Source of the DNA: Acidobacteriota bacterium
GTDB lineage: Bacteria; Acidobacteriota; Terriglobia; Terriglobales; Acidobacteriaceae
Assembly (NCBI GenBank): GCA_021804965.1
Contig: JAJZGG010000005.1
Span: 1 to 58,430, forward strand
Length of the DNA stretch: 58,430 nt
Direction of reading: 5' to 3'
Each line of letters starts with the position of its first letter. The first letter of the stretch is position 1. The notes under the pieces are model-generated. The model made no database searches, was not told the origin of the DNA, and saw only the letters and a list, made by a program, of their open reading frames with translations. Below are positions 3,352-45,336 of this stretch, piece after piece. The position numbers were made by a program, and so were the translations under genes.

Positions 3352-6300
3352 TTATGCCTGGCCCTGGAATTCAGCCTGGATGGCTGGCGAGAGACGGTGC
3401 GCATCCTTGAGCATGCTGCTGCGTGCCGGCATCTCATTCAGCAGCGCTTCGGCTGATTGCACCAGCGCGTTGGCATGGAACCACTCCTGCACCTTGCCGT
3501 CGTGAAGGAGATTCAGCAAGGCAAGCAGGGACATACCCATGTGATGCGCCATCCACTCGCGCACCACTTCCGGCTGCTTCCGGGAGGTGCGATAGTCGAT
3601 GGCCTCATAGAGCCCATAGCGACCGCAGCCAGCGGCAGCTTCCAGAGTGCGCAGGTTGGCCATGGCTGCCTGCGGATCGATGACCATGGCCAGATAGGTG
3701 GCATAGGGGGCGATGACTGGTCCTGCCTTTGCCTCCCAGGACAGTGCCACATCTGGAATGCCCCAGGCATGGTAGCCGTAGTCTCCGGAATCATTGCGCT
3801 CGGCAAAACCCGATTCGGAGATTCCCCACGGAAGACTGCGCTTGCGTGCCCATGCACGCTGGATGCGCACGCAGGCACTCTGGGTTCGGGACAGCAGGGT
3901 GTTGGGCCAGGCACGCATCCACAGCGCCGGCATCAGGTATTCAAACATCGTACCGGTCCAGGACATTAGCGCGTGGCATCCAAAGGCCTGCGCGTGATCG
4001 CGCGAAAGCCGGAACCAGCTTTGCTGCGGCATCTCTCCCCGGGCGATGGCCAGAAACGCCGCCATACGTGCTTCGGAGGCCAGCATGTCATAGCAGGAAT
4101 CGTGAAGACGGTTTGCGCGCAGATCCCAGCCGATGGAGAGAACCCTGCGATCGGGATGCAGGAGAAAACCAAATTCCATGCCGTCGGCAAGCGCTTCCGT
4201 CCGCTGCACGATCTGCTTCCGCTGCTCGTCAAGCCGGGCAAGCCGCGCAGCCGCCTGTGCAGTTATCTCGCGGCAGCGCTCCGCAGCCGGGCGCGTGGCG
4301 GTATCCTGCTGCGCGTTGGTACGCAGTGCCTCCAGCACCGCTTCCGCCACACGGAGCAGCTCGCCTGGCCTGCGGTCTTCGATGGCGTCCTGGGGAAGAC
4401 TGGCGGACAACACGGCAAACTCGGGCAGCACCCAGGGTGCATATTGCTCGATGAGCTGCAACAGTGCGCGATGCCGCGCGGAGAGGCTTCGCGCCGCATG
4501 AGTGTCGATCTGCGAAAGATCCTGAGATGACTCCACCAGCCAGCGCGAGGATGCAGCGAGGCTGAAGCTGCCGGCAGGCAGCGGATGAGCGGCCAGCCAG
4601 CGTTGCAGATCGGGCTCGTCCTGTTCACAGGCTGCCTGCAGAGTCAACGCGGAAAAGTGCTTCGCTGCAAAGACTGGTTCCGACGCAAGCGATTCCGTGC
4701 CTGCTTTGAGCGTGAGCAGCGATGCGAGGAAGTTGCCACTATCCACTGTGGAGACGAAGGGCGATGCGTCCAGCGGCTTACAGGTGCGGGTGTCATACCA
4801 GTTGTAGAGGTGGCCGCGATACTGATCGAGTGACTCGATCGTTGTCAATGAGGCAAGTGTTTGCTCGACGAACTCCGGCAGGGTGAGAAAGCCGAAGGAT
4901 ACGGCAGCCTGCCGTGCATTCAGCAGCAGACCAATGTTCGTGGGCGAGACGCGTGCTGCCTCCCGCATGCCCGTCTCATCGACGTTGTCCGGGATGAGCC
5001 AGTGATGCTGCTGCGTGCCAAAATCCTGAAAGTAGTGCCAGATGCGCAGGGCATGGCCCAGCAGCCACTGCCTGTCCCGCGGCCGCAACTGCTGCTGCTC
5101 GTCCATCGGGGAGCGATTGAGCCACTGAATGAGCACACGCACCAGCAGCCAGCCCAGCAGCAAGGGCAGCGCCACGAAAAATGCATGCCGAACATTGCGC
5201 GTGAACCAAAGGATGCCGCCGAGCAGCAGAGCCAGAACAGGAACCCAAAGCATGTACTGGTCCACGGGAGTCCGGCGCTCGCGTGAGGTTTCCGCCTGTG
5301 CTGCCGTCTCCCACTCCAGCAGCCGCTCCCCCGTGATCCAGCCGCGCACCAGGGAGCGCAGAACAGCATCCAGCCCAAGCAGCGCCTGGTGCGGCAGCAG
5401 GAGAAGATTCAGCGTGGTGATCAGCAGATTGCGCCCGAAGCCAAGGAAGACCTCCCGCACGGGAGATACGGGCGTGGTTGCGAACAGGATGCGCGCGATC
5501 CCAATGGCCAGCTGCAGAACGGTGGGAGCCAGCAGGAGCAAGAGGATGACCAGCATCCAGTAAAGCGGCTGGCCGGGAAGCGCGAGCCAGCCCGCAACGA
5601 GAAAGAGAAACAGAAACGGATCGACGAGGGAACGTCGCAGATTGTCCAGAATCTTCCAGCGCGAGATGAAGGAGATGGGATTCGCGACCACGCGTCCGGA
5701 CTCCTCCTGGACGGTGGGAAAGATCCAGCGCACAATCTGCCAGTCCCCACGCACCCAGCGGTGCTTGCGGCGGCTGTAGGCACTGTAGTGCGAAGGGTAA
5801 TCATCGATGAGTTCCACGTCGGTGATCAATCCGGCTCGTGCATAGGCGCCTTCAATCAGATCGTGACTGAGCAGTGCATTGTGCGGGAAGCGATGGTTGA
5901 GCACGGCATGCAGAGTTTCAATTTCATAGATGCCCTTGCCGGTAAAGATTCCTTCGCCGAAGAGATCCTGATAGGTGTCAGAGACTGCGCGGGTGTAGAT
6001 GTCCAGGCCGGTTTGGCCGGAGAAGATGCTGGCAAGTCGCGAGCGAATGGCCGAATGCACCGTGACGCTGACCCGGGGCTGCAGAATGCCGTAGCCGGTT
6101 TTGACGACGCGCGTCCGGGGATCGATGATGGCGCGGTTGAGCGGGTGTGCCATGGCTCCGATGAGACTGGCGGCTGATCCGCGTGGAAGCTGGGAGTCGG
6201 AGTCAAGCGTGAGCACGTAGCGAATGTTCTGGAGGACGTCCAGATTGCCGGCCTTGATTGGAAAGGCATCAAATTCGCCGGTCAGCAGCTTGTTCAGATC

Positions 6301-7815
6301 AATGAGCTTGCCGCGCTTGCGCTCCCACCCCATCCACGCACCCTGCCTGCGATTGAAGATGCGATGACGATGCAGAAGAAGAAAACTTCCCTTGCCTGCA
6401 CCGGCATATTTGCGGTTCAATCCATCGGCAAGCTCCACGGCCAACTCCACCAGCGGATGGTCGTCGCGCAGGTTGGGTTTGCTGACGGAATCGGGCAGGT
6501 CGGTCAACAGGGCAAAGTGGAGATTGGCGTCGCGATTGGCGAGATAGCGTACTTCAAGAGTTTGGAAAAGATCCCGCACCTGATCCGGACTGAGCAACAG
6601 GGTTGGCACCGCGACCAGCGTTGCGCACTCTGCCGGCACTGCGGCACGAAAGTCCAGACGCGGCAGGGGAGAAGGCTCAAACGATGCGCTGACCAGCGTA
6701 TTCACAAGCTCCACGGCACACTGGGAGGCAGGAAGAGCGAGGAGAAACAGGCCAAGCAGCAGTTCAGTCCAGACGTGGACGTACCCTGCCAGAGGGAACA
6801 GCGGCAGAGCCGTGAACAGGATGGTAAGGATGACGATGTTGCCCACATAGAATTCATCCGCCGATGCGCGGATGCTTTCACGCATTCGCCAGAGCATGGG
6901 CGGATGATAGCCAATGCGGGTGCGCAGCATGGAAAAACCCTCGGCAAAGAGGTAGCAGCCAATATGCTGTTGCCGTTGGCGCGTGCGAGGATCGGCGTCA
7001 TCCGCAGCCTTCGCCTGCCGGGCCAGTTCCAGCGCGGCCTGCGCAACTCTGGATTCGCCGAAGTCGGAATACGCTGCGAGAAATGCCACTCTGCGGCGAT
7101 AGCTCTCGCGGCTTTCAAAATCCATTTCGGCAAATGTGCCGGTGGGATCCTGCTTCAGAACGGCATCGAAGAGGATTCTGGGCTCGAGCACAGAGGCCCA
7201 GTCAATCCAGCCCACCTGACGGAGACTCATCAGGCAGTGGAGCGTCCGTTGTGCGACATCTTCGCAGTCGGCCGCATCCAGCAGCACGGGAGCATCGTGC
7301 AGAATCGACTCCAGCAATGCAAACTTCAGGAAGATGGGCAGCTGCCAGATTTCCTTGTAGAGCAGCGGCTCATAGGTCTGAAAGGCGTCCACATATTCCA
7401 GCAGGGATGGCAGTGTGAACTGAGACTCCACCTGCTCGAGGTAGAGCTGCATCAAGCCAGCCACCCGCGGTTCCTCCCGCTGCAGCAGGCTCAATCTTGG
7501 CAGCTTGTCCGATTCGGTGGGAAGATCCACGAGTGCGGAGTGCAACAGCTTCAGGCTTTTGCGCAACTCCGCAACTGCCTGACCGCGAAGAGGCTGATGC
7601 GAAGGGGTGCTGTCGATGGGCAGGCGCACAAAGGCCCTGTTCAGCTTGCGCATGGCGATGCGCATGGCATCGGTACGCTCTGAAAACGATGAGGCGTTGC
7701 TGGGCCAGGGAATCACTTCCCAGCCGGAGGCTGTCTGTGCTGCCGCGTGCAGCTTCTGGATTGTCTGTTGTTCGCGCTGCATTTCTTCCGGTGTTGATGA
7801 GCTCATCTCTGGCAT
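3352..7815 (-). CDS. Short cyclic beta-1,2-glucan synthase-like protein (GT84 plus glycoamylase-like domain, no GH94)
   Basis: Inner-membrane glycosyltransferase of the NdvB/ChvB type, 1487 residues. It has an N-terminal cytoplasmic region (1-320), membrane segments around 325-365, a GT84 catalytic domain (about 390-720) with LTLDSDSQLPR at 536-545 and RRKHRW at 682-687, more membrane segments (about 733-930), and a glycoamylase-like domain to about 1450 ending in MAHHMGMSLLALLNLL. That last domain corresponds to the middle, cyclising region of NdvB. Characterised NdvB/ChvB proteins are about 2800 residues and carry a C-terminal GH94 phosphorylase that sets chain length; here the protein stops before it and RNase R follows directly. 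Its start is 6 bases after the stop of an ABC exporter gene. Family is confident; the product (cyclic or linear beta-1,2-glucan) is inference. Confidence 0.85.
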   Translation of the reverse strand: MPEMSSSTPEEMQREQQTIQKLHAAAQTASGWEVIPWPSNASSFSERTDAMRIAMRKLNRAFVRLPIDSTPSHQPLRGQAVAELRKSLKLLHSALVDLPTESDKLPRLSLLQREEPRVAGLMQLYLEQVESQFTLPSLLEYVDAFQTYEPLLYKEIWQLPIFLKFALLESILHDAPVLLDAADCEDVAQRTLHCLMSLRQVGWIDWASVLEPRILFDAVLKQDPTGTFAEMDFESRESYRRRVAFLAAYSDFGESRVAQAALELARQAKAADDADPRTRQRQQHIGCYLFAEGFSMLRTRIGYHPPMLWRMRESIRASADEFYVGNIVILTILFTALPLFPLAGYVHVWTELLLGLFLLALPASQCAVELVNTLVSASFEPSPLPRLDFRAAVPAECATLVAVPTLLLSPDQVRDLFQTLEVRYLANRDANLHFALLTDLPDSVSKPNLRDDHPLVELAVELADGLNRKYAGAGKGSFLLLHRHRIFNRRQGAWMGWERKRGKLIDLNKLLTGEFDAFPIKAGNLDVLQNIRYVLTLDSDSQLPRGSAASLIGAMAHPLNRAIIDPRTRVVKTGYGILQPRVSVTVHSAIRSRLASIFSGQTGLDIYTRAVSDTYQDLFGEGIFTGKGIYEIETLHAVLNHRFPHNALLSHDLIEGAYARAGLITDVELIDDYPSHYSAYSRRKHRWVRGDWQIVRWIFPTVQEESGRVVANPISFISRWKILDNLRRSLVDPFLFLFLVAGWLALPGQPLYWMLVILLLLLAPTVLQLAIGIARILFATTPVSPVREVFLGFGRNLLITTLNLLLLPHQALLGLDAVLRSLVRGWITGERLLEWETAAQAETSRERRTPVDQYMLWVPVLALLLGGILWFTRNVRHAFFVALPLLLGWLLVRVLIQWLNRSPMDEQQQLRPRDRQWLLGHALRIWHYFQDFGTQQHHWLIPDNVDETGMREAARVSPTNIGLLLNARQAAVSFGFLTLPEFVEQTLASLTTIESLDQYRGHLYNWYDTRTCKPLDASPFVSTVDSGNFLASLLTLKAGTESLASEPVFAAKHFSALTLQAACEQDEPDLQRWLAAHPLPAGSFSLAASSRWLVESSQDLSQIDTHAARSLSARHRALLQLIEQYAPWVLPEFAVLSASLPQDAIEDRRPGELLRVAEAVLEALRTNAQQDTATRPAAERCREITAQAAARLARLDEQRKQIVQRTEALADGMEFGFLLHPDRRVLSIGWDLRANRLHDSCYDMLASEARMAAFLAIARGEMPQQSWFRLSRDHAQAFGCHALMSWTGTMFEYLMPALWMRAWPNTLLSRTQSACVRIQRAWARKRSLPWGISESGFAERNDSGDYGYHAWGIPDVALSWEAKAGPVIAPYATYLAMVIDPQAAMANLRTLEAAAGCGRYGLYEAIDYRTSRKQPEVVREWMAHHMGMSLLALLNLLHDGKVQEWFHANALVQSAEALLNEMPARSSMLKDAHRLSPAIQAEFQGQA

Positions 7816-7821
7816 GATCCC

Positions 7822-9684
7822 TCAGCGATAACTGGCTGCCTGCATCTCAAACATGGAGGCATAACGACCGCCTGCAGCCATCAGTTGTGGATGTGTCCCT
7901 TCTTCGACCAGCCGACCGCCTTCGAGAACGACGATGCGATCCGCCATGCGAACGGTGGAAAATCGATGCGAGATCAGCAGTGCCATTTTGTTGGAGGTGA
8001 GATCGGAAAACCGCTCAAAGACCTCCATCTCGCTACGGGCATCGAGCGCGGCAGTGGGCTCATCGAGAATCAGAAGCTGTGCATCGCGCAGATAGGCACG
8101 AGCGAGCGCGAGCCGCTGCCATTCCCCTCCGGAAAGATCGACACCGCCTTCAAAACGTCGCCCGAGCATTTGATCGTAGCCGTGCTGGAGCTTGGCCACC
8201 ACGCTGGCTGCCAGGCTCTTCTCCGCGGCATCCTCAATCTCTTCGAGTGTGTGCGGAATCTCCACGCGACCGACGGCAATGTTTTCCCGGGCAGTCATCT
8301 CATAGCGCATGAAGTCCTGAAAGATGACGCCAATCTCGGCATGCAGATCGTCCAGATCATAGGCGCGAAGATCCACTCCATCCAGCAGAATTTCGCCTTC
8401 CGTGGGATCGTACAAGCGGGTGATCAGCTTGACGATGGTTGTCTTGCCTTGTCCGTTTTCACCGATCAGCGCCACGCGCTCGCCGGGTGCCAGCAGAAAA
8501 TTGAAGTCGCTGAGCACTCTGCGCGTGGTGCCGGGATAGGAGAACGAGACGTTGCGAAATTCAAATCCGCGCCGGATCGGCCTGGGTACCCGCAGACCAT
8601 TGGCGACGGATTCCACACGCGGCTTCATGGCAAAGAATGCAAGCAGGTCCGTGAGAAACAGCGCCTGATCTGCGACGCCTGAAGCGGTGGAAAAGACCAT
8701 CTGGATGTTGCTCATCGCCTGGAGAATCGCGGTTGTGATGAGCGTGAGATCGCCGACCGTATATTGGCCCTGAATGGTCCGATAGATGCTGACGCCATAG
8801 GCTGCGTAGTAGCCCAGCTGGCCGAGGATGGCAAGCAGTCCGCCCCAGAACAGTCGCCTGCGGTTGAGATCGACGTTGTCGTGATAAATCTGCAGCGAGA
8901 TGGCGCTGAATCGCTCCGTGAGGTAGTGGCTCAGGTTGAAGAGCTTGAGCTCCTTGGCCGCTTCCTTGCTGGCACCGACCTGCCGCAGGTAATCCATCTG
9001 TCGTCGCAGTGGTGTCTGGCGCAGGTTCTTGGCGTAGGAGAGAAACGCGAAATGGCTTTCCCCAAGAAATGCAGGCACAATGCCCAGTACAAGCAGGGCG
9101 AGCAGCAAGGGCGAGTAGCGCACCAGAACAGCGGAAAACGCAATGGCCGTGACCGACTGCTGGATGAGCCGACCCATCATCTGGATCATGGCCAGACGAT
9201 CGGTTGCCTGCACACGCGCACGCTCCAGCCGATCATAAAAGACCGGGTCTTCATAGACGGTGACGTCCAGAGCCGCAGCCTTGCGCATCACCTCCACGCT
9301 GACGTGGTGGGTGTAGCGGTCTGCCAGAAGACTGTCGAAATAATCCACGAGGCGCAACAGAATTCCGATGGCGACAGAGAGCAGCATCTCTGCGGCCACC
9401 AGCCACCAGAAGTGTTTGGGGAGCGGTTCGTGCAGTCGAATGTGGTTGACGCCGTCAATGATGAATCGGCTAATGATCCCGATGCCCACGGGCAAAAAAG
9501 CAACCACGATACGAATGGTGATATTCCAGAAGACGACCGAAGGCCCGGACTCCCAGACGAACCGGAGCACAAGCGGAATATTACGCAGCGCCTGAATGCG
9601 CTCTGCCCAGGCGCGACCGGAAGACGCAGCCTGAGGCATGGGTGTGCTGGAATCAACCGAGGCCTGCCCTGTGATTTTCGACAT
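7822..9684 (-). CDS. ABC exporter, fused permease and ATPase (possible NdvA/ChvA-like glucan exporter)
   Basis: A 620-residue half-transporter with an N-terminal six-helix permease region (about 40-330) and a C-terminal ATPase. The ATPase motifs are complete: Walker A GENGQGKTT, Q-loop VIFQDF, signature LSGGEWQR, Walker B LLILDEPTAALD and H-loop LLISHR. It should work as a homodimer in the inner membrane. I place the start at the ATG giving MSKITGQ because GAGGGA sits at normal spacing before it; another start lies 54 bases upstream. The stop is 6 bases before the glucan-synthase gene, so the two are almost certainly co-expressed. In rhizobia a fused ABC exporter (NdvA/ChvA) exports cyclic beta-1,2-glucan, which suggests the same job here. 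The substrate is inference; lipids or peptides remain possible. Confidence 0.85.
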   Translation of the reverse strand: MSKITGQASVDSSTPMPQAASSGRAWAERIQALRNIPLVLRFVWESGPSVVFWNITIRIVVAFLPVGIGIISRFIIDGVNHIRLHEPLPKHFWWLVAAEMLLSVAIGILLRLVDYFDSLLADRYTHHVSVEVMRKAAALDVTVYEDPVFYDRLERARVQATDRLAMIQMMGRLIQQSVTAIAFSAVLVRYSPLLLALLVLGIVPAFLGESHFAFLSYAKNLRQTPLRRQMDYLRQVGASKEAAKELKLFNLSHYLTERFSAISLQIYHDNVDLNRRRLFWGGLLAILGQLGYYAAYGVSIYRTIQGQYTVGDLTLITTAILQAMSNIQMVFSTASGVADQALFLTDLLAFFAMKPRVESVANGLRVPRPIRRGFEFRNVSFSYPGTTRRVLSDFNFLLAPGERVALIGENGQGKTTIVKLITRLYDPTEGEILLDGVDLRAYDLDDLHAEIGVIFQDFMRYEMTARENIAVGRVEIPHTLEEIEDAAEKSLAASVVAKLQHGYDQMLGRRFEGGVDLSGGEWQRLALARAYLRDAQLLILDEPTAALDARSEMEVFERFSDLTSNKMALLISHRFSTVRMADRIVVLEGGRLVEEGTHPQLMAAGGRYASMFEMQAASYR

Positions 9685-22510: not shown

Positions 22511-23734
22511 CTAGGCCGTCAGCACGGCTTCGATCTGGTCGAGGCCCCAGTCGAGGTCTTCGCGGGAGATGACCAGCGGAGGTGCAATGCGGATGACCGT
22601 CTCATGCGTCTCCTTGCAGAGCACGCCACGCTGCTGCAGTGCCTCGCAGATGGGCCGTGCCGGCTGGTGGAGTTCGATGGCAAGCCAAAGTCCGCGACCA
22701 CGCACCTGACGGACGCGCGAGCTGGAGACACCGCGCAGCCGCTGCAGTGCATGGGCACCGAGTTCTGCAGACCGCCGGATGAGATCTTCGTCCACAAGCA
22801 CACGCAGGGCGGCACGGGCGACGGCGCAGGCCAGGGGATTTCCCCCGAAGGTGCTGCCGTGGTCGCCGGGGTGGAAGACGCCAAGAATCTGGCGCGAGGC
22901 AAGCACGGCCGAGACGGGATAAAAACCGCCGGAGAGCGCCTTGCCGATGATGGCAGCATCGGGTCGGATGCCCTCGTGCTCAAAGGCAAAGAGCTTGCCG
23001 GTGCGACCCAGACCAGACTGAATCTCATCGGTGATGAGCAGCACATTGTGTCTGCGGCAGAGAGCAGCGGCAGCAGCCAGATAGCCATCGGGCGGAAGGA
23101 TGATTCCGGCCTCACCCTGGATCGGCTCGACGAGAAAGGCTGCAGTGTGGGGCGTGATGGCCTGCTCGAGCGCGGCGATGTCTCCGAAGGGGATAGCGCG
23201 AAAACCCGGCGCAAAGGGGCCAAAGCCGGAGCGGTATTGCGCGTCCGACGAAAAGCCGACGATGGCGATGGTGCGTCCGTGGAAGTTGCCGGAGGCAACG
23301 AGAATCTCCGCCTGATTGGCAGGGATTCCCTTCACGGTTTCCCCCCACTTGCGCGCTGCCTTTAGAGCGGTCTCAACAGCCTCTGCGCCGGAGTTCATGG
23401 GCAGGGCCATCTCAAAGCCGGTCAGTGCATGCAGGTCGCGATAGAGCAGGGGGAGCTGATCATTGCGAAAAGCGCGTGAGGTAAGCGTGACCTTCTGCGC
23501 CTGCTCCACCATGGCCTGGCGTATGGCCGGGTGACAGTGCCCCTGATTGACGGCCGAATATGCCGCGAGAAAATCCAGATACCGTCTGCCGGAAACATCC
23601 TCAACCCAGGCACCCTCCGCACGGGCAATCACGACATCCAGGGGATGGTAGTTGTGTGCGCCGTATTGCTCTTCGAGTGCGATCAGCTCCGAGGCATTCA
23701 ATTCGGATTCCAGGGCAAGGGTTCTTCCAGACAT
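22511..23734 (-). CDS. rocD: Ornithine--oxo-acid aminotransferase
   Basis: Class III PLP aminotransferase, 407 residues, converting ornithine and 2-oxoglutarate to glutamate semialdehyde and glutamate (arginine breakdown or proline formation). The opening [18 protein letters not shown] is typical of ornithine aminotransferase rather than acetylornithine or GABA aminotransferases. [28 protein letters not shown] with Asp236, and Lys265 in [16 protein letters not shown] form the active site. Start ATG has AAAGG upstream. It lies 104 bases downstream of the sulfite/nitrite reductase stop and in the same direction; no terminator is visible, so read-through is possible. Confidence 0.92.
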
Positions 23735-23838: not shown

Positions 23839-25518
23839 TTATGCCAGTACTTCCTGCGGGATCGATGCCCCCTCCAGCATGCCGCGCAACTGCTCGTTGG
23901 AGTGCCGTGCAAACCATGCGCGCAGGTTTTCGCCTTCGCTGCGCTGGCCCAGATACTGCCGCAGCAGCCTCTCCAGTGCATCGGCCACCTCTTCGGAACG
24001 GCATCGATAGTTCACCTGCCGCGCAAAGCCGGCATGCTGTCCCAGCGCTCCGCCCAGTGCAAAATACCAGGCATCGACCAGAGCGCCATCATGCTTGATC
24101 TTTTTGCCTTCGAGGCCGATATCCCCGATCCAGGCCTGGCCGCAGTTGTTGGGGCAGCCGGTAACGTGCAGCTTGAGCTGCTGATCAAACTCCGGCAGGC
24201 GCAGGTCCATCTCCTCGGCCAGCCAGCGGGCAAAGCCTTTGGTTTCCGTGATGGCCAGCTTGCAGAACTCGGTTCCGGTGCAGGCAACCGTACCCCGCCA
24301 GAAAGGCCTGGCATCGACGAAGAGTCCGAGCTCCTGCAGTGCCGTCAGCACCGCGTCCAGATGCTTCTCCGGCACATGCGGAATGACAAAGTTCTGGTTC
24401 GGCGTTGTCCGCAGCTCGCCGCCGGCAAACTGCTCCACCAGGTCCGCCAGTGCGAGCAGGGTTTGCCCGCTCAAACGGCCATTGATCACGCTGGCACCCA
24501 CGGCATAGAAGCCCGGCTGCCGCTGCGGCTGCACGCCGGAGTGATCCCGCAACACATCTTCCGGAACATCGTCGGCCACACCCGGCTCCAGCCGATAGCC
24601 GAGGATGGCCTCGACCTCCTGCAGAAAACGCTCTGCCGTCCAGCCCTCGCCGAGAAACAGGTACTTGAGGCGGGCGCGATCGCGGCTTTGCCGCAACCCC
24701 TGTTGACGCCGGAAAAGCTCCGCAATGGCACGCACCACCGGGATGACTTCCGCCTCACGCAGGAATGCGTCCAGCTTGACGGCAAGATGCGGCTCCTTGG
24801 ACAATCCGCCGCCCACGCGCACCGAATATCCCACCTCCGATGCGGCTCCGGTGCCGCGACGCACTGCCGTGATGGCCACGTCGTTGATCTCCGGATAGCT
24901 GCACCAGACCGGGCAGCCGGTCACCGTGATTTTGAACTTGCGCGGCAGGTTGTAGAACTCCGCGTTACCGTTCAGCTCCCGGGCGATTGCCCGCGCCAGC
25001 GGCGAGGCATCCACAATTTCATGCGGATGCAGCCCGGCCAGCGAGCATCCGGTCACATTGCGCACCACATCGCCGCAGGCTCCGCGCGGCGACAAACCGA
25101 CCGACTCAATGCCATCGACCACCTTGGGCAGCGCGTCAATGGTGAGCCAGTGGAGCTGGATTGCCTGTCGCGTTGTGATGTCGGCCAGATCGCGGGCGTG
25201 ATCGACCGTAAGATGGCCGATGGTGCGAAGCTGCTGCGCCGACAGAATCCCGTTGGGCACGGCGATACGCATCATGAAGTAGTCGGTCGTTACGCCTTCG
25301 CCGCCCTTGCCACCGGTCACTCCTGCGCCATCGCCCTGGGTGTATATCCCCCACCACTTGAAGTAGAGACCGGCCCACTCCGGCAGCACGCTTCCGCGTC
25401 CCTCGGCAGCAAATCGCCGCACCTCATCCCACGCCTGCCAGGGATTCTTCTCCAGCTTCAGCCGCTCGGCTCGCTGCGCTTTGGTTTCCTTCACGGCGGA
25501 CTCGTTTGCTTGCGTCAC
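23839..25518 (-). CDS. Siroheme nitrite/sulfite reductase, probably assimilatory sulfite reductase
   Basis: 559 residues with the two repeated ferredoxin-like halves and two siroheme/4Fe-4S domains of ferredoxin-dependent nitrite/sulfite reductases. The cluster ligands are Cys413, Cys419, Cys455 and Cys459 (CTGTEFC and CPNNC). It carries six-electron reduction of sulfite to sulfide (or nitrite to ammonia) in the cytoplasm. Sequence alone does not settle the substrate, but the cysteine-rich leader peptide and attenuator directly upstream point to sulfite and cysteine synthesis. The start is GTG with AGGAG 8 bases upstream; a longer in-frame extension of 67 residues is rejected because it overlaps the leader and terminator and has unrelated composition. 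No other cys genes are in the window. Confidence 0.88.
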   Translation of the reverse strand: MTQANESAVKETKAQRAERLKLEKNPWQAWDEVRRFAAEGRGSVLPEWAGLYFKWWGIYTQGDGAGVTGGKGGEGVTTDYFMMRIAVPNGILSAQQLRTIGHLTVDHARDLADITTRQAIQLHWLTIDALPKVVDGIESVGLSPRGACGDVVRNVTGCSLAGLHPHEIVDASPLARAIARELNGNAEFYNLPRKFKITVTGCPVWCSYPEINDVAITAVRRGTGAASEVGYSVRVGGGLSKEPHLAVKLDAFLREAEVIPVVRAIAELFRRQQGLRQSRDRARLKYLFLGEGWTAERFLQEVEAILGYRLEPGVADDVPEDVLRDHSGVQPQRQPGFYAVGASVINGRLSGQTLLALADLVEQFAGGELRTTPNQNFVIPHVPEKHLDAVLTALQELGLFVDARPFWRGTVACTGTEFCKLAITETKGFARWLAEEMDLRLPEFDQQLKLHVTGCPNNCGQAWIGDIGLEGKKIKHDGALVDAWYFALGGALGQHAGFARQVNYRCRSEEVADALERLLRQYLGQRSEGENLRAWFARHSNEQLRGMLEGASIPQEVLA

Positions 25519-25563
25519 AGTATGCTCCTGCCTGGTTGTTCGGAAGTAATTGCCTGAGAAACG

Positions 25564-25594
25564 AAAAACTCCGGGGCCTTGGGGCCTGCCGGAG
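25564..25594 (-). terminator. Intrinsic terminator in the reductase leader (attenuator)
   Basis: On the minus strand CTCCGG-CA-GGCC / CCAA / GGCC-CCGGAG is followed by TTTTTCGTTTC. It stands 45 bases before the GTG of the reductase and after the leader peptide, so it can only stop transcription into the reductase. The first arm, CTCCGGCA, is a perfect 8-nt complement of TGCCGGAG inside the leader ORF (25655-25662), which gives a competing antiterminator helix. Confidence 0.8.
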
Positions 25595-25625
25595 TCATTG
25601 TGCCTGGTTGCGGATTGTGCGCCTC

Positions 25626-25727
25626 TTACGGCTGCAGCTGCTCCTGTGACCATGCTCCGGCATTGTCGAACCGCGGACAACACGGCATCGAACAGGCATT
25701 CGGACACGGACAGGCGCAACGAATCAT
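25626..25727 (-). CDS. Cysteine-rich leader peptide (33 aa) of the sulfite reductase attenuator
   Basis: A short ORF, ATG at 25727 to TAA at 25626. Cysteines are at positions 4, 6, 8, 12, 16 and 17 of 33 (RCACPCPNACSMPCCPR), and none after. The remaining residues are ordinary and end in QEQLQP. A candidate promoter (TTGACT, 17 bases, TAGGCT) would start transcription at or next to the A of the ATG, so the peptide may be leaderless; GAGG is only 2 bases from the ATG. A terminator with an alternative pairing partner follows. The arrangement matches a translational sensor of charged tRNA-Cys: stalling at the Cys codons would leave the antiterminator half free. Not recognised as an annotated gene family; the role is inferred from layout. 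Confidence 0.7.
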   Translation of the reverse strand: MIRCACPCPNACSMPCCPRFDNAGAWSQEQLQP

Positions 25728-25733
25728 GTCCTC

Positions 25734-25762
25734 AGCCTACGTGCGAATCCATGCGAAGTCAA
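25734..25762 (-). promoter_or_regulatory. Candidate promoter of the reductase leader
   Basis: TTGACT (25757-25762), a 17-base spacer and TAGGCT (25734-25739) on the minus strand. The -35 is close to consensus, the -10 is weak. The predicted start falls on the leader-peptide ATG. Confidence 0.4.
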
Positions 25763-25868
25763 CGCGAGACAAGGCTCATGATTCTATTTTTTGGGAATCC
25801 CCTGATTTGTTAAGGTTCAAAAAGTCAATTGCCCATGGTTCTGGTGATGGAGAAAATCGGTTTTATGC

Positions 25869-25897
25869 TTGCCAGCGGCAGGTGCAGTGCGTATAGT
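25869..25897 (+). promoter_or_regulatory. Sigma-70 promoter of the TonB-dependent receptor gene
   Basis: TTGCCA, an exact 17-base spacer and TATAGT, each 5 of 6 to consensus, about 54 bases before the ATG at 25951. Its surroundings are AT-richer than the rest of the window. Confidence 0.65.
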
Positions 25898-25950
25898 CGT
25901 GACGTTCCTGAAAACAATTTCCCTGCCGTCCTTAACCAAGAGGTTCCCAA

Positions 25951-28900
25951 ATGGCCCGCTCCAACCCTGCTAGAACAATCGATTGTTTTTTCTTTGCTTT
26001 TTGCCTTCCGTCCTGCCGGTCTCTGGTTTTTCGCCTTCACTCCCTCGGTGCAGCCGTCGCGTCCACGATCCGTCTTCCCCACCGCACTCTCAGATTTGCT
26101 CTTTGCAGTCTGCTGGCGCTTGGCCTGCTTTCCGGTCCCATGGCAGTCAAGGCGCAGCCAGCCGCTGCTGCCGGAAGCGCCGCGAACTCTGTCATTGCGG
26201 TTGCCGGCACTCTGCGTGACTCCGGCGGGGCTCCGATTGCCTCGGCACGCATCCAGTTGCAGAACGCTGAAGGCCAACACCTGCAGGCATCCACGGCGGC
26301 CGATGGCAGCTTTCATTTTCCGCGACTGGCACCCGGCAGCTACCGGCTGAGCGTCCAGCGGGGTGGACGCAGCTATGCCGGAAGCGCCCTTGTCACGCTG
26401 CCGTGGGTGCTGGCCAGCGGCAGCGTCGGCGATCTTGCCATCACGATTACGGCACAAGGGGATCTGACCGTATCCGGAAGCCAGCGCGTGGAGGCCACGA
26501 GTGGTGAGGATCTCTCCGGCAAGGAAGTGAGCAGTCTTCCGCTCAACAAGCGCGACTTCAGTCAGTTGCTGCTGCTTGCCGCAGGCACCATGACAGACAG
26601 CAATGGCGCCACCAACTTCACCGAGCAGTTTGCCATCGATGGGCAGCGCGGCGTGGAGGCAACCTTTGCCATGGACGGGGCCGATATCAGCGATCCGGAG
26701 ATGGGCGGAGCCACCTTTACCAACTTCAACGTGGACGCAATCGACAGCATTCAGTCCAGTTCGGGATGGATGCCGGCGCAGATCGGTCGCGGAGCCTCAG
26801 GCTTTACCAACATCATCACGCGCTCGGGCAACGCCGGTTTTCATGGCTCGGTCTTTGAATTCGTGCGGAACTCCGCCTTTGATGCGCGCAACTACTTCGA
26901 CTACTCCTCGCCGATCAATCCCGGCCGCCTGCCTCCGTTCCGTCGCAACGAATTCGGCTTTACCAATGGCGGACCCGTGGTGCTGCCGCATCTCTACAAC
27001 GGGCGCGGACACACCTTTTACTTTGGGCAATACCAGGGATTTCGTCAGGTGCTAGGCACCACCCAGGTGCTGCCTGTTCCCACGGCACAGCAGCGCTCGG
27101 GAATGGACACCATCTCCACCGGCAATGGCCAGACAGACACCCTGTATGTTCCGATCAACCCTGCCATTGCCGCCATTCTGGCGCGCTATCCGCTGCCGAA
27201 CCTGCCCACCGGAGCCTACGGTGCGGAGACCTTCGCCACCTCGTCGAAGGTCATCACGAATGCCAACCAGTTCTCGTTGCGCATCGATGAGCAACTCTCC
27301 GACAAGACCCAGCTGATGGGCCGGTATGTCTGGGATCATCTGACCGGCCCAACCACCAATCCGGATCAGACCACGATTGATCCTGCCTTTGGCGTGCAGT
27401 ATGTCGATCATCAGTCGAATGGCATCCTGAACCTGCGCCATGAGGTGTCTCCGCACTTCACCTTCAGCACCTCGCTTAGCGCCACCCGCACCACGCCTGG
27501 ATTTCCGACACCGGACCACACGGACCCGGCGGTCAAGTTTCTGGATGGCTCTTTCGAGCCCTTTGATTCCGCGGCCGGGTCGGTCATGAGCGCCTTTGGC
27601 AATCTCTTTCAGGGTCAGCAGTCGTTTACCTGGACGCGGGGATCCCATCTGGTGCAGTTTGGCGGAGAAGCACGGCTGAACCGCGATACCACCTATTTCG
27701 GCATCAGCCCCAACGGGGAGTACGACTTCGGTGGCGGTACCGCCTACTCGCCGGTTTTTATTCCGTCGGCCAGCGGACAGCATAATGTCCAGCCCGGGCA
27801 GGCGCTGCCGGATACGCTCAGCAGCTTTCTCGTCGGCAGCCCGTTCCAGTACACCGTGGCGGTGGCTCCGCCGTACTTCTCCAACGGAACCCACATTGGT
27901 CCGGCGGCAATCAACCGCAATGCCTGGGCGCTCTATGCGCAGGATACCTGGCGCGTGGCGCCAACGGTAACCCTCGATTACGGCCTGCGCTGGGAGCTGT
28001 ATACGCCCATCTCGGAGCGCGCGCGCCGCACCTCCGGCCTTAGCTTTACCCCCACGACCAACGGCGGCATCCAGCAGCAGTATGTGATCAATCCGCAGCC
28101 GGGCTATCGCTTCCAGATGAATGGATTTATGCCGCGCGTCCAACTGAGCTGGGCTGCTCCGCATGGCTTTCAGGTGCATGCCGGCGGCGGCATCACCGTG
28201 ATTCCGCCCAACATCTGGCAGGATAACTTCCTCACCGGTTCCACGCCGTTTGTGGTCTATCCGCGCCTGACCTCGGCCTCGGGCGCACCCATTTCCTACG
28301 GCTATCAGATCACTCCCAATGAACTGCCCAATGTCTATACGCCGCAGGGAGCCAATATCTTTGCCAACGGCAACACCAAGTCCGTACCGGCGAATACCGT
28401 GATGGACCTGAACCGCTATGAGCAGGATCTGGCCGCACTGACTCCTTCCGGTGCCGTGGCACCGCTGGCGCTGAGCTCCATCTATCCCAAATTCGGCAAC
28501 GCCTGGCTCTACCTGTGGACACTGGGCGTGGAACGCAAGATCGGGGATCTGGTGGCGGATGCCGCGTATGTGGGCTCGGCCGGATCGCATCTGCCGCGGG
28601 AAAGCTTTCCCAATGCCTACCCCGGAGCAGGTCCGGTTGAGGCTCCCTACACGACCTTTGACAGCAACGGGAATATTCTGGGCGGCTTTGGCTTCGAGCA
28701 GGTGATCACCGATACCTCGCACTCCACCTACCACGCGCTGCAAACCTCATTGCAGGGAACCATCGCCCATGGTGGCCCTGGAATTCAGGCCGGCTACTCC
28801 TGGTCCAAATCGATCGATGACACCAGTTCGGTGACCGGCGGATTCATCTCCGGCGGAACCGGGGCCGTGGCTCCCGCATTTCCGCAGAACCCCACCAATA

Positions 28901-29526
28901 CCCATCTGGAAAAAGGTCCGTCCACCTTTGACGTGACGCACAGCTTCACGCTGAGCGTTGCCCAGGATATGCATCTGCAGCAGATCGGCTTTCTGCATCC
29001 GGTGCCTCGCGGCGTGACAGAAGGCTGGGAGCTGCTGAGTATCTCCAGCATCTCCAGTGGTCTTCCCTTCACCGTGCTTTCCGGAATTCAGCAGACCGGG
29101 TATGGCTCCAACGGGGTGGACCGACCCGATCAGATCGGCAAGCCCAACCTGTCCACGGCGCGCAAGAAGCGGGAGGATTACTTTGGTCTGGGACCGGACA
29201 ATGCCTCCTACTTCTCGATTCCGATTCACATCCCCGGCGGCACAGGCCCCAATCAGGGCCGCTTTGGCACGCTGGGCCGGAATACCTTCCGTGGACCCGC
29301 CTACTACGACTTCGACTTCGCCCTCATCAAAGACACTCCGTACGGGCATCGGCGCAGCGGGGTGGAGCTGGTGGATCTGCAGTTCCGGGCAGAGTTCTTC
29401 AACCTCTTCAACATTGTGAACATGGGGCTGCCAGCCAACACGATCAACGGCGCAGGCTTTGGCGTCATCAGCAAGACGGCCGGAACGTCCCGTCAGATTC
29501 AACTTTCGCTCAAGCTCATCTACTAG
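25951..29526 (+). CDS. Oar-like TonB-dependent outer-membrane receptor with carboxypeptidase-regulatory domain
   Basis: 1191 residues, the size usual for the expanded acidobacterial Oar-like family. A long N-terminus ends in a signal-type hydrophobic stretch (LRFALCSLLALGLLSGP, about 48-65). A carboxypeptidase-regulatory-like beta sandwich follows (about 80-165, VAGTLRDSGGAPIASARIQLQ, ...GSYRLSV). Then a plug domain (about 180-320; LPLNKRDFSQLLLLAAG, FAIDGQRG, NIITRSGNAGFHGSVFEFVRN) and a C-terminal barrel ending in aromatic LSLKLIY as outer-membrane proteins do. Likely imports large carbohydrate or other ligands using TonB energy; the ligand is unknown. AAGAGG lies 8 bases before the ATG. 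Start codon could be further downstream because the first 40 residues are atypical. Confidence 0.9.
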   Translation: MARSNPARTIDCFFFAFCLPSCRSLVFRLHSLGAAVASTIRLPHRTLRFALCSLLALGLLSGPMAVKAQPAAAAGSAANSVIAVAGTLRDSGGAPIASARIQLQNAEGQHLQASTAADGSFHFPRLAPGSYRLSVQRGGRSYAGSALVTLPWVLASGSVGDLAITITAQGDLTVSGSQRVEATSGEDLSGKEVSSLPLNKRDFSQLLLLAAGTMTDSNGATNFTEQFAIDGQRGVEATFAMDGADISDPEMGGATFTNFNVDAIDSIQSSSGWMPAQIGRGASGFTNIITRSGNAGFHGSVFEFVRNSAFDARNYFDYSSPINPGRLPPFRRNEFGFTNGGPVVLPHLYNGRGHTFYFGQYQGFRQVLGTTQVLPVPTAQQRSGMDTISTGNGQTDTLYVPINPAIAAILARYPLPNLPTGAYGAETFATSSKVITNANQFSLRIDEQLSDKTQLMGRYVWDHLTGPTTNPDQTTIDPAFGVQYVDHQSNGILNLRHEVSPHFTFSTSLSATRTTPGFPTPDHTDPAVKFLDGSFEPFDSAAGSVMSAFGNLFQGQQSFTWTRGSHLVQFGGEARLNRDTTYFGISPNGEYDFGGGTAYSPVFIPSASGQHNVQPGQALPDTLSSFLVGSPFQYTVAVAPPYFSNGTHIGPAAINRNAWALYAQDTWRVAPTVTLDYGLRWELYTPISERARRTSGLSFTPTTNGGIQQQYVINPQPGYRFQMNGFMPRVQLSWAAPHGFQVHAGGGITVIPPNIWQDNFLTGSTPFVVYPRLTSASGAPISYGYQITPNELPNVYTPQGANIFANGNTKSVPANTVMDLNRYEQDLAALTPSGAVAPLALSSIYPKFGNAWLYLWTLGVERKIGDLVADAAYVGSAGSHLPRESFPNAYPGAGPVEAPYTTFDSNGNILGGFGFEQVITDTSHSTYHALQTSLQGTIAHGGPGIQAGYSWSKSIDDTSSVTGGFISGGTGAVAPAFPQNPTNTHLEKGPSTFDVTHSFTLSVAQDMHLQQIGFLHPVPRGVTEGWELLSISSISSGLPFTVLSGIQQTGYGSNGVDRPDQIGKPNLSTARKKREDYFGLGPDNASYFSIPIHIPGGTGPNQGRFGTLGRNTFRGPAYYDFDFALIKDTPYGHRRSGVELVDLQFRAEFFNLFNIVNMGLPANTINGAGFGVISKTAGTSRQIQLSLKLIY

Positions 29527-30735: not shown

Positions 30736-31140
30736 TTATTGCCGGGCAAAGGTGAGCGAAGCCGAGTTGATGCAGTAGCGCAAACCCGTGGGACGGGGTC
30801 CATCGGGAAAGACGTGCCCAAGATGCCCCCCGCAGCGGGCGCAGGTGACTTCAATCCGGCGCATACCGTAGCTCAGGTCCTCATGCTCCACGATTGTGTT
30901 GCTTTCGGCGGGAAGAAAGAAGCTTGGCCAGCCGCAGCCGGAGTCAAACTTCGCATCGCTGGTAAACAGCAGTGCGTCGCAACCGGCGCAGTGATAGTTG
31001 CCCGTGTCATGGTGGTGCGTCAACGCACCGGTAAAGGGTCTTTCCGTCCCTTTTTCGCGCAGCACGTGATACTGCTCCGGCGTCAGCCGGGCACGCCACT
31101 CGGCCTCGCTCCACTGCATTTCCGGTTTCTTCTCGGCCAT
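30736..31140 (-). CDS. msrB: Peptide-methionine (R)-S-oxide reductase MsrB
   Basis: 134 residues, cytoplasmic repair of methionine-R-sulfoxide. Two CxxC pairs (CAGC and CARC) bind structural zinc, GCGWPSFF and [12 protein letters not shown] are family hallmarks, and the catalytic cysteine is in [18 protein letters not shown] sits right before the ATG. It is 41 bases upstream of the beta-lactamase-like gene and may be co-transcribed with it. Confidence 0.96.
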
Positions 31141-45259: not shown

Positions 45260-45336
45260 GGCGGAGTAGCTCAGATGGTTAGAGCGACGGATTCATAACC
45301 CGTAGGTCGGCGGTTCGATCCCGCCCTCCGCCACCA
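45260..45336 (+). tRNA. tRNA-Met (CAT anticodon)
   Basis: 77 bases with all four arms. The acceptor stem GGCGGAG/CTCCGCC is fully paired, the anticodon loop reads TTCATAA, the T-loop is TTCGATC and CCA is encoded. The G1-C72 pair excludes the initiator, so this is elongator tRNA-Met. A tRNA-Ile with lysidine-modified CAT is the alternative. It stands alone, 43 bases before a TPR gene. Confidence 0.93.

Follow-up and report, generated by a model that had tools for sequence, protein, structure and literature searches.

A candidate cysteine-responsive attenuator, with a predicted leaderless polycysteine leader, ahead of an assimilatory-type sulfite reductase gene in Acidobacteriaceae

The window analysed here is a 58,430-nucleotide stretch of contig JAJZGG010000005.1 from a member of the Acidobacteriaceae, and a short ORF rich in Cys codons lies in it upstream of a siroheme-type reductase gene. 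The question raised by this locus is whether the ORF and the terminator that follows it control the reductase in response to cysteine. From comparison with related loci, we consider it very probable that charged tRNA-Cys is sensed here by a ribosome-mediated transcription attenuator, which controls an assimilatory sulfite reductase. The features upstream of the reductase, all on the minus strand, are as follows.

25762-25757 (−): predicted −35 hexamer TTGACT, read by eye in the window sequence
25739-25734 (−): predicted −10 hexamer TAGGCT, 17 nt past the −35 hexamer and 6 nt ahead of the leader ATG
25727-25626 (−): leader ORF of 33 codons and a stop, with six Cys codons, from the ORF translation
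25720-25637 (−): leader hairpin (protector) of the free RNA, the Cys-codon region paired with most of the antiterminator arm, from the minimum-energy fold
25718-25677 (−): stretch of Cys codons, codons 4 to 17, predicted stall region, from the sequence
25682-25677 (−): tandem TGT TGT, codons 16-17, from the sequence
25662-25655 (−): candidate antiterminator arm TGCCGGAG, 17 nt past the A-site base of Cys17
25628-25626 (−): stop codon of the leader ORF
25596-25567 (−): terminator hairpin with a CA bulge, −19.1 kcal/mol, from the minimum-energy fold
25594-25587 (−): 5′ arm of the terminator, CTCCGGCA, exact complement of TGCCGGAG
25568-25564 (−): U-run of the terminator, from the sequence
25529-25525 (−): Shine-Dalgarno-like AGGAG of the reductase, 6 nt ahead of its GTG
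25518-23839 (−): sulfite reductase of NirA/SirA type, 559 aa, GTG start at 25518, from sequence and homology

The original prediction had described a six-cysteine leader ORF, a terminator ahead of the reductase and an exact 8-nt match between the leader and the terminator, and all three were recovered. Translation of the ORF placed the cysteines at residues 4, 6, 8, 12, 16, and 17, with none in the remainder of the 33-residue peptide. The six are all retained in the sibling locus L161, which also carries the TAGGCT hexamer. In the minimum-energy fold of positions 25740-25560 (181 nt; z −2.75 against shuffles) the terminator hairpin was formed, and the 8-nt complementarity of the two arms was read directly from the sequence. 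As modelled, the window leader has the 1:2, 2:3, and 3:4 arrangement of classical attenuators. A simple terminator scan of positions 25400-26100 reported no terminator (1.2 expected by chance), which we attribute to the CA bulge. A simple promoter scan of the same region gave two matches, both other than the TTGACT/TAGGCT promoter used here.

As the chance level for the window locus, at least five Cys codons in 12 turned up in 5 of 1120 sequences obtained by dinucleotide shuffling of such upstream regions. The complementarity between the leader tail and the terminator gave p = 0.03 against shuffled tails, for this one locus. Taken by itself the window locus is suggestive, and the case for an attenuator rests on the comparison with relatives. 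Next to it, a large outer-membrane β-barrel protein with a carboxypeptidase-regulatory-like domain is encoded divergently from the leader (25951-29526, +), and a sulfur-linked gene, that of the methionine sulfoxide reductase MsrB, lies about 5 kb away (30736-31140, −).

Related reductases were searched in 200 Acidobacteriaceae genomes, 151 of which had a match. We fetched 114 of the 136 listed matches at 54% identity or more, and after two loci with short upstream sequence (L013 and L081) were left out, 112 loci were compared. At least four Cys codons in 12 occurred upstream of 75 of the 112 reductases, compared with 3 of 112 antisense sequences and 24 of 1120 shuffles. At the threshold of at least six, the counts were 35 of 112, 0 of 112, and 1 of 1120, respectively. 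Paralogous reductases served as a control: among 26 more distant Acidobacteriaceae enzymes (34-37% identity; 14 from the sampled genomes and 12 from others) a Cys cluster was seen in only one, over a wider upstream stretch. Examples of such leaders are MCRCTCCCCCCCCAFVSSDARGLLT, at the end of the L089 ORF, and MALCPMPVMCCACCCALRRTCG, within the L028 ORF. Among the 80 named loci, leaders were found in Edaphobacter lichenicola, Granulicella aggregans, and Paracidobacterium acidisoli. For the Terriglobus roseus reductase (L231), 6 kb of upstream sequence contained no credible Cys leader. The reductase of this locus spans 5944-7710 and is followed by siroheme genes.

Terminators showed the same bias. 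A terminator of −14 kcal/mol or better was present in the last 150 nt of 75 of the 112 loci, against 8 of 112 antisense sequences and 15 of 560 shuffles. A leader with at least three Cys codons in 12 combined with a terminator of −11 kcal/mol or better was observed in 86 of 112 loci, compared with 9 of 560 shuffles. The distance from the leader stop to the terminator was 19-53 nt in 85 of these 86 loci, with a median of 30. The pair was missing within 350 nt in 26 of the 112 loci. At loci of the L218 and L206 type, operon order accounts for the lack of a leader directly at the reductase: leader and terminator stand ahead of cysD-cysN-cysH-reductase-siroheme genes. L219 is ordered leader-reductase-siroheme genes-cysD-cysN-cysH.

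A promoter with a TTGAC-type −35 box, a spacer of 17 or 18 nt, and a TAnnnT −10 box was recognised ahead of 63 of the 75 leaders. In 59 of the 63, an in-frame start codon followed 6-11 nt past the −10 box, at 6 or 7 nt in 42 of them. Of all start codons 5-11 nt past the −10 box, 64 shared the leader frame and 1 fell in either of the other two. A Shine-Dalgarno-like motif was seen at 1 of 59 leaders, compared with 60 of 114 reductase genes by a lenient count. In the window, TAGGCT lies 6 nt ahead of the ATG, so transcription is predicted to start at or adjoining the leader ATG. This promoter spacing predicts a leaderless leader ORF, as in the mycobacterial polycysteine sORFs. Zheng 2011 (PMC3160421) estimated an average of 13.3% leaderless genes in three Acidobacteria genomes, which makes a leaderless leader plausible.

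The pairing between leader tail and terminator was then compared across loci, with the last Cys of the densest cluster taken as the stall point. In 35 of 86 loci, the complementarity of the tail to its own terminator arm exceeded that of shuffled tails at p ≤ 0.05. The last Cys anywhere in the ORF was also tried as stall point and was rejected, with complementarity at p ≤ 0.05 in fewer loci (22 of 86). Because related loci are not independent, they were grouped into 31 sequence clusters. When arms were swapped between these clusters, own pairs had a mean of −14.0 kcal/mol against −11.7 kcal/mol for swapped pairs, and 0 of 20000 permutations were as good. The arms themselves vary by clade while the pairing is preserved, with GCCGGAG/CTCCGGC in the window clade and CTGGCG/CGCCAG in the L084 clade. 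The GCCGGAG of the antiterminator arm is retained in L161, L162, L163, and L180. Covariation inside clade A2 (20 rows) was set aside as evidence in favour of the between-cluster swap, since its near-invariant arms hold little information. Both Cys codons and paired arms, which the original prediction proposed to look for in relatives, therefore recur (Cys clusters in 75 of 112 loci; pairing across the 31 clusters).

Folding calculations were less informative. With a stalled ribosome at equilibrium, the terminator was still formed in 83 of 86 loci. The E. coli trpL, thrL, and leuL controls behaved alike under the same conditions (terminator probability 0.94-0.99), so equilibrium folding is an insensitive measure and failed as proof of a switch. 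As the terminator wins at equilibrium both here and in the E. coli controls, a switch could only be kinetic. In partial transcripts, where the 3′ arm of the terminator is absent, upstream pairing of the 5′ arm was higher in the stalled state than with a ribosome at the stop codon in 60 of 86 loci (p 4e-6), and trpL, thrL, and leuL showed the same direction. By cluster, this held in only 17 of 31 (p 0.04), and pairing in the stalled state was not above that of shuffled tails (41 of 86). Mean upstream pairing of the 5′ arm in partial transcripts was 0.51 with no ribosome, 0.40 with a stalled ribosome, and 0.24 with a ribosome at the stop. The maximum without a ribosome would imply read-through of an untranslated leader as well, which neither contradicts nor supports the attenuator model. 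Overall, the switch was not clearly visible in these models, and the E. coli controls did little better.

In the mechanism that we infer, transcription would start at or next to the leader ATG, as the promoter spacing suggests, and a ribosome would load on the leaderless message. When Cys-tRNA is ample, the ribosome would pass the Cys codons and reach the stop codon, the terminator would form, and RNA polymerase would halt ahead of the reductase. Under Cys-tRNA shortage, the ribosome would wait at the Cys codons. The stall geometry follows from the size of the ribosome footprint: as 17 nt separate the A-site base of Cys17 from the antiterminator arm downstream, a ribosome waiting at the tandem codons 16-17 would leave positions 25662-25655 free, just beyond its footprint. 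This arm would then pair with the nascent 5′ arm of the terminator, so that the terminator would come too late and the reductase would be transcribed. The signal in such a kinetic switch would be cysteine.

The closest solved structure to the reductase is 1zj8, mycobacterial NirA (E 1.2e-91). A Tyr and a Cys near the siroheme are cross-linked in the mycobacterial enzyme. By a manual count, Tyr59 and Cys148 of the reductase align with these positions, and neither varies across 11 aligned sequences. Every match of the reductase to an NCBIfam model stayed under the cut-off, and no curated family cut-off was reached. Operon partners in relatives, named from Pfam matches and position, include PAPS-reductase-family genes (cysD, cysH by position), a cysN-like GTPase, and siroheme-synthesis genes. 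The reductase is linked to both sulfate-activation and siroheme genes in L206, L218, and L219, and to siroheme genes in L222 and L231. The Tyr/Cys pair and these partners favour sulfite as substrate and make an assimilatory role very probable, in support of the assignment made in the original prediction. The link to sulfate-activation or siroheme genes is absent in the window, where an ornithine aminotransferase gene (22511-23734, −), in the same orientation, starts 105 nt past the reductase. In L162, an aminotransferase class III gene (7796-9013) occupies the corresponding place. Cotranscription of this nitrogen gene with the reductase under cysteine control is possible.

Other sulfur genes were surveyed for similar leaders. 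For cysD, 14 loci were obtained from 14 of 16 genomes searched, and 10 of the 14 had leaders with at least four Cys codons in 12, while L123 and L140 had three. Of the other two loci, L116 has a match 500-600 nt upstream that was not counted, and L117 lies downstream of the reductase, in one operon with it. L140 belongs to the window's own genome; its cysD leader is MTELLANISCCRLSMHIDGCSL, with a promoter read as TTGAAT-17-TAGTCT-7 nt-ATG. The cysD leaders of L119, L123, L124, and L140 share a conserved peptide end, ...DGC.L, which seems to derive from an RNA arm, CGGGTG, that faces a CACCCG further downstream. For three of these four, no terminator with a U-run was found after the arms, and the mode of regulation at those three may differ. 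Among the other PAPS-reductase-family loci (cysH by position), 0 of 16 reached four Cys codons. No Cys leader was found at 20 cysK-family loci, at the 9 usable of 10 cysS loci, or at 4 loci with a below-cut-off match to the sulfate-binding-protein family.

Beyond the Acidobacteriaceae, and likewise outside the order, the arrangement is patchy. In the sister family f68, 3 to 7 Cys codons in 12 were counted in 7 of 8 loci, the eighth having short upstream sequence, and 1 of these 7 showed a recognisable leaderless-type promoter. Leader and terminator were present at single loci of three more families (L247, L254, and L256) among 20 loci. In L256, on the reverse strand at about 800-980, a leader with 8 Cys codons in 12 and a terminator precede a different siroheme reductase (30% identity) of another Acidobacteriota family. 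A wider cysD survey covered 24 of 30 loci, the others being at a contig end or not cysD. Six of 7 loci within the Acidobacteriaceae reached four Cys codons, and among 17 outside the family two f45 loci had a leader (3 and 4 Cys codons).

The strongest rival, to which we give a low probability, is that the Cys-rich leader acts by Rho-dependent termination or by translational coupling, as proposed for mycobacteria, and that the hairpin is incidental. PMC4633059 reports Cys-enriched leaderless uORFs ahead of cysA2, Rv0485, and nirA, the last being homologous to the present reductase. PMC1262725 predicts Cys leaders ahead of Mycobacterium cys operons and reports no conserved terminator hairpins upstream. 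Only 4 of the 12 credible cysD leaders (L111, L114, L115, and L119) are followed by a recognisable terminator, so the mode of the cysD leaders is less clear than that at the reductase. At the reductase, the near-constant distance between leader and terminator and the excess of the pair over shuffles argue against an incidental hairpin.

A second rival, that the ORF encodes a small Cys-rich protein that binds metal or acts in redox chemistry, is very improbable. The cysteines are indeed the most widely retained residues of the leader peptides, but length, Cys spacing, and the other residues vary between clades. In the clade A2 alignment, moreover, the conserved peptide tail coincides with the RNA arm that faces the terminator. 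Least probable of all is a metabolite- or tRNA-binding riboswitch (T-box or other) with a fortuitous ORF: the leader is structured and has a terminator, but the Cys clustering is strand-specific, the start-codon spacing is frame-specific, and Rfam at gathering score gave nothing in 20 related loci and in the window only a tRNA gene elsewhere (45260-45333, +).

The proposed attenuation by charged tRNA-Cys can be set beside known systems. The mycobacterial polycysteine sORFs, whose cysteine response is credited to Canestrari 2020 in PMC9031893 and PMC9094748, share the Cys-codon cluster, the leaderless start, and targets that include a NirA/SirA-type reductase and cys operons. According to PMC1262725, their Cys runs lie near the stop codon and conserved terminator hairpins are lacking, whereas here, in another phylum, a tail with the antiterminator arm and an intrinsic terminator follow. 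The uORFC-8-2 leader ahead of cysS in Rhodobacterales, as given in PMC8632094, shares tandem Cys codons, a stem holding the Cys codons, and a terminator with U-run; its target is cysS, which lacks such a leader in our survey. The E. coli trp, thr, and leu attenuators share a leader peptide enriched in the pathway's own amino acid, a choice between alternative hairpins, and a terminator, but here the signal would be cysteine and the leader ORF has no Shine-Dalgarno-like motif. Sinorhizobium trpL (PMC7298713) shares attenuation and a leader ORF at the transcript start, and Streptomyces LeuL2, TrpL1, and IlvL (PMC8079986) share attenuation, a leaderless leader ORF, and Rho-independent terminators; both concern other amino acids and other phyla. 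Our literature search, to which subscription journals were mostly closed, found no Cys attenuator in Acidobacteriota. What would be new is that a leaderless polycysteine leader occurs, in another phylum, together with an antiterminator and an intrinsic terminator. Compared with the original prediction, the leaderless appearance of the leader and the presence of similar leaders at cysD are new.

A broader reading is tentative and, in our estimate, rather unlikely. In the Acidobacteriaceae, and patchily in other Acidobacteriota, sulfate assimilation (reductase, cysDNH, and siroheme genes) might form a cysteine regulon under leaderless polycysteine leaders. These would work by way of intrinsic terminators at the reductase, and at cysD perhaps in another manner. 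Such a putative regulon would be independent of, or ancestral to, the mycobacterial scheme and would replace a dedicated cysteine transcription factor. Both this reading and that of an attenuator are weakened because most cysD leaders lack a terminator and pairing was highest without a ribosome. In practice, the leader helps to tell the sulfite reductase from several similar siroheme reductases, and this putative, compact natural sensor of charged tRNA-Cys could be tested in a reporter. For the biology of the group, the finding suggests that Acidobacteriota, too, make use of leaderless translation for sensing.
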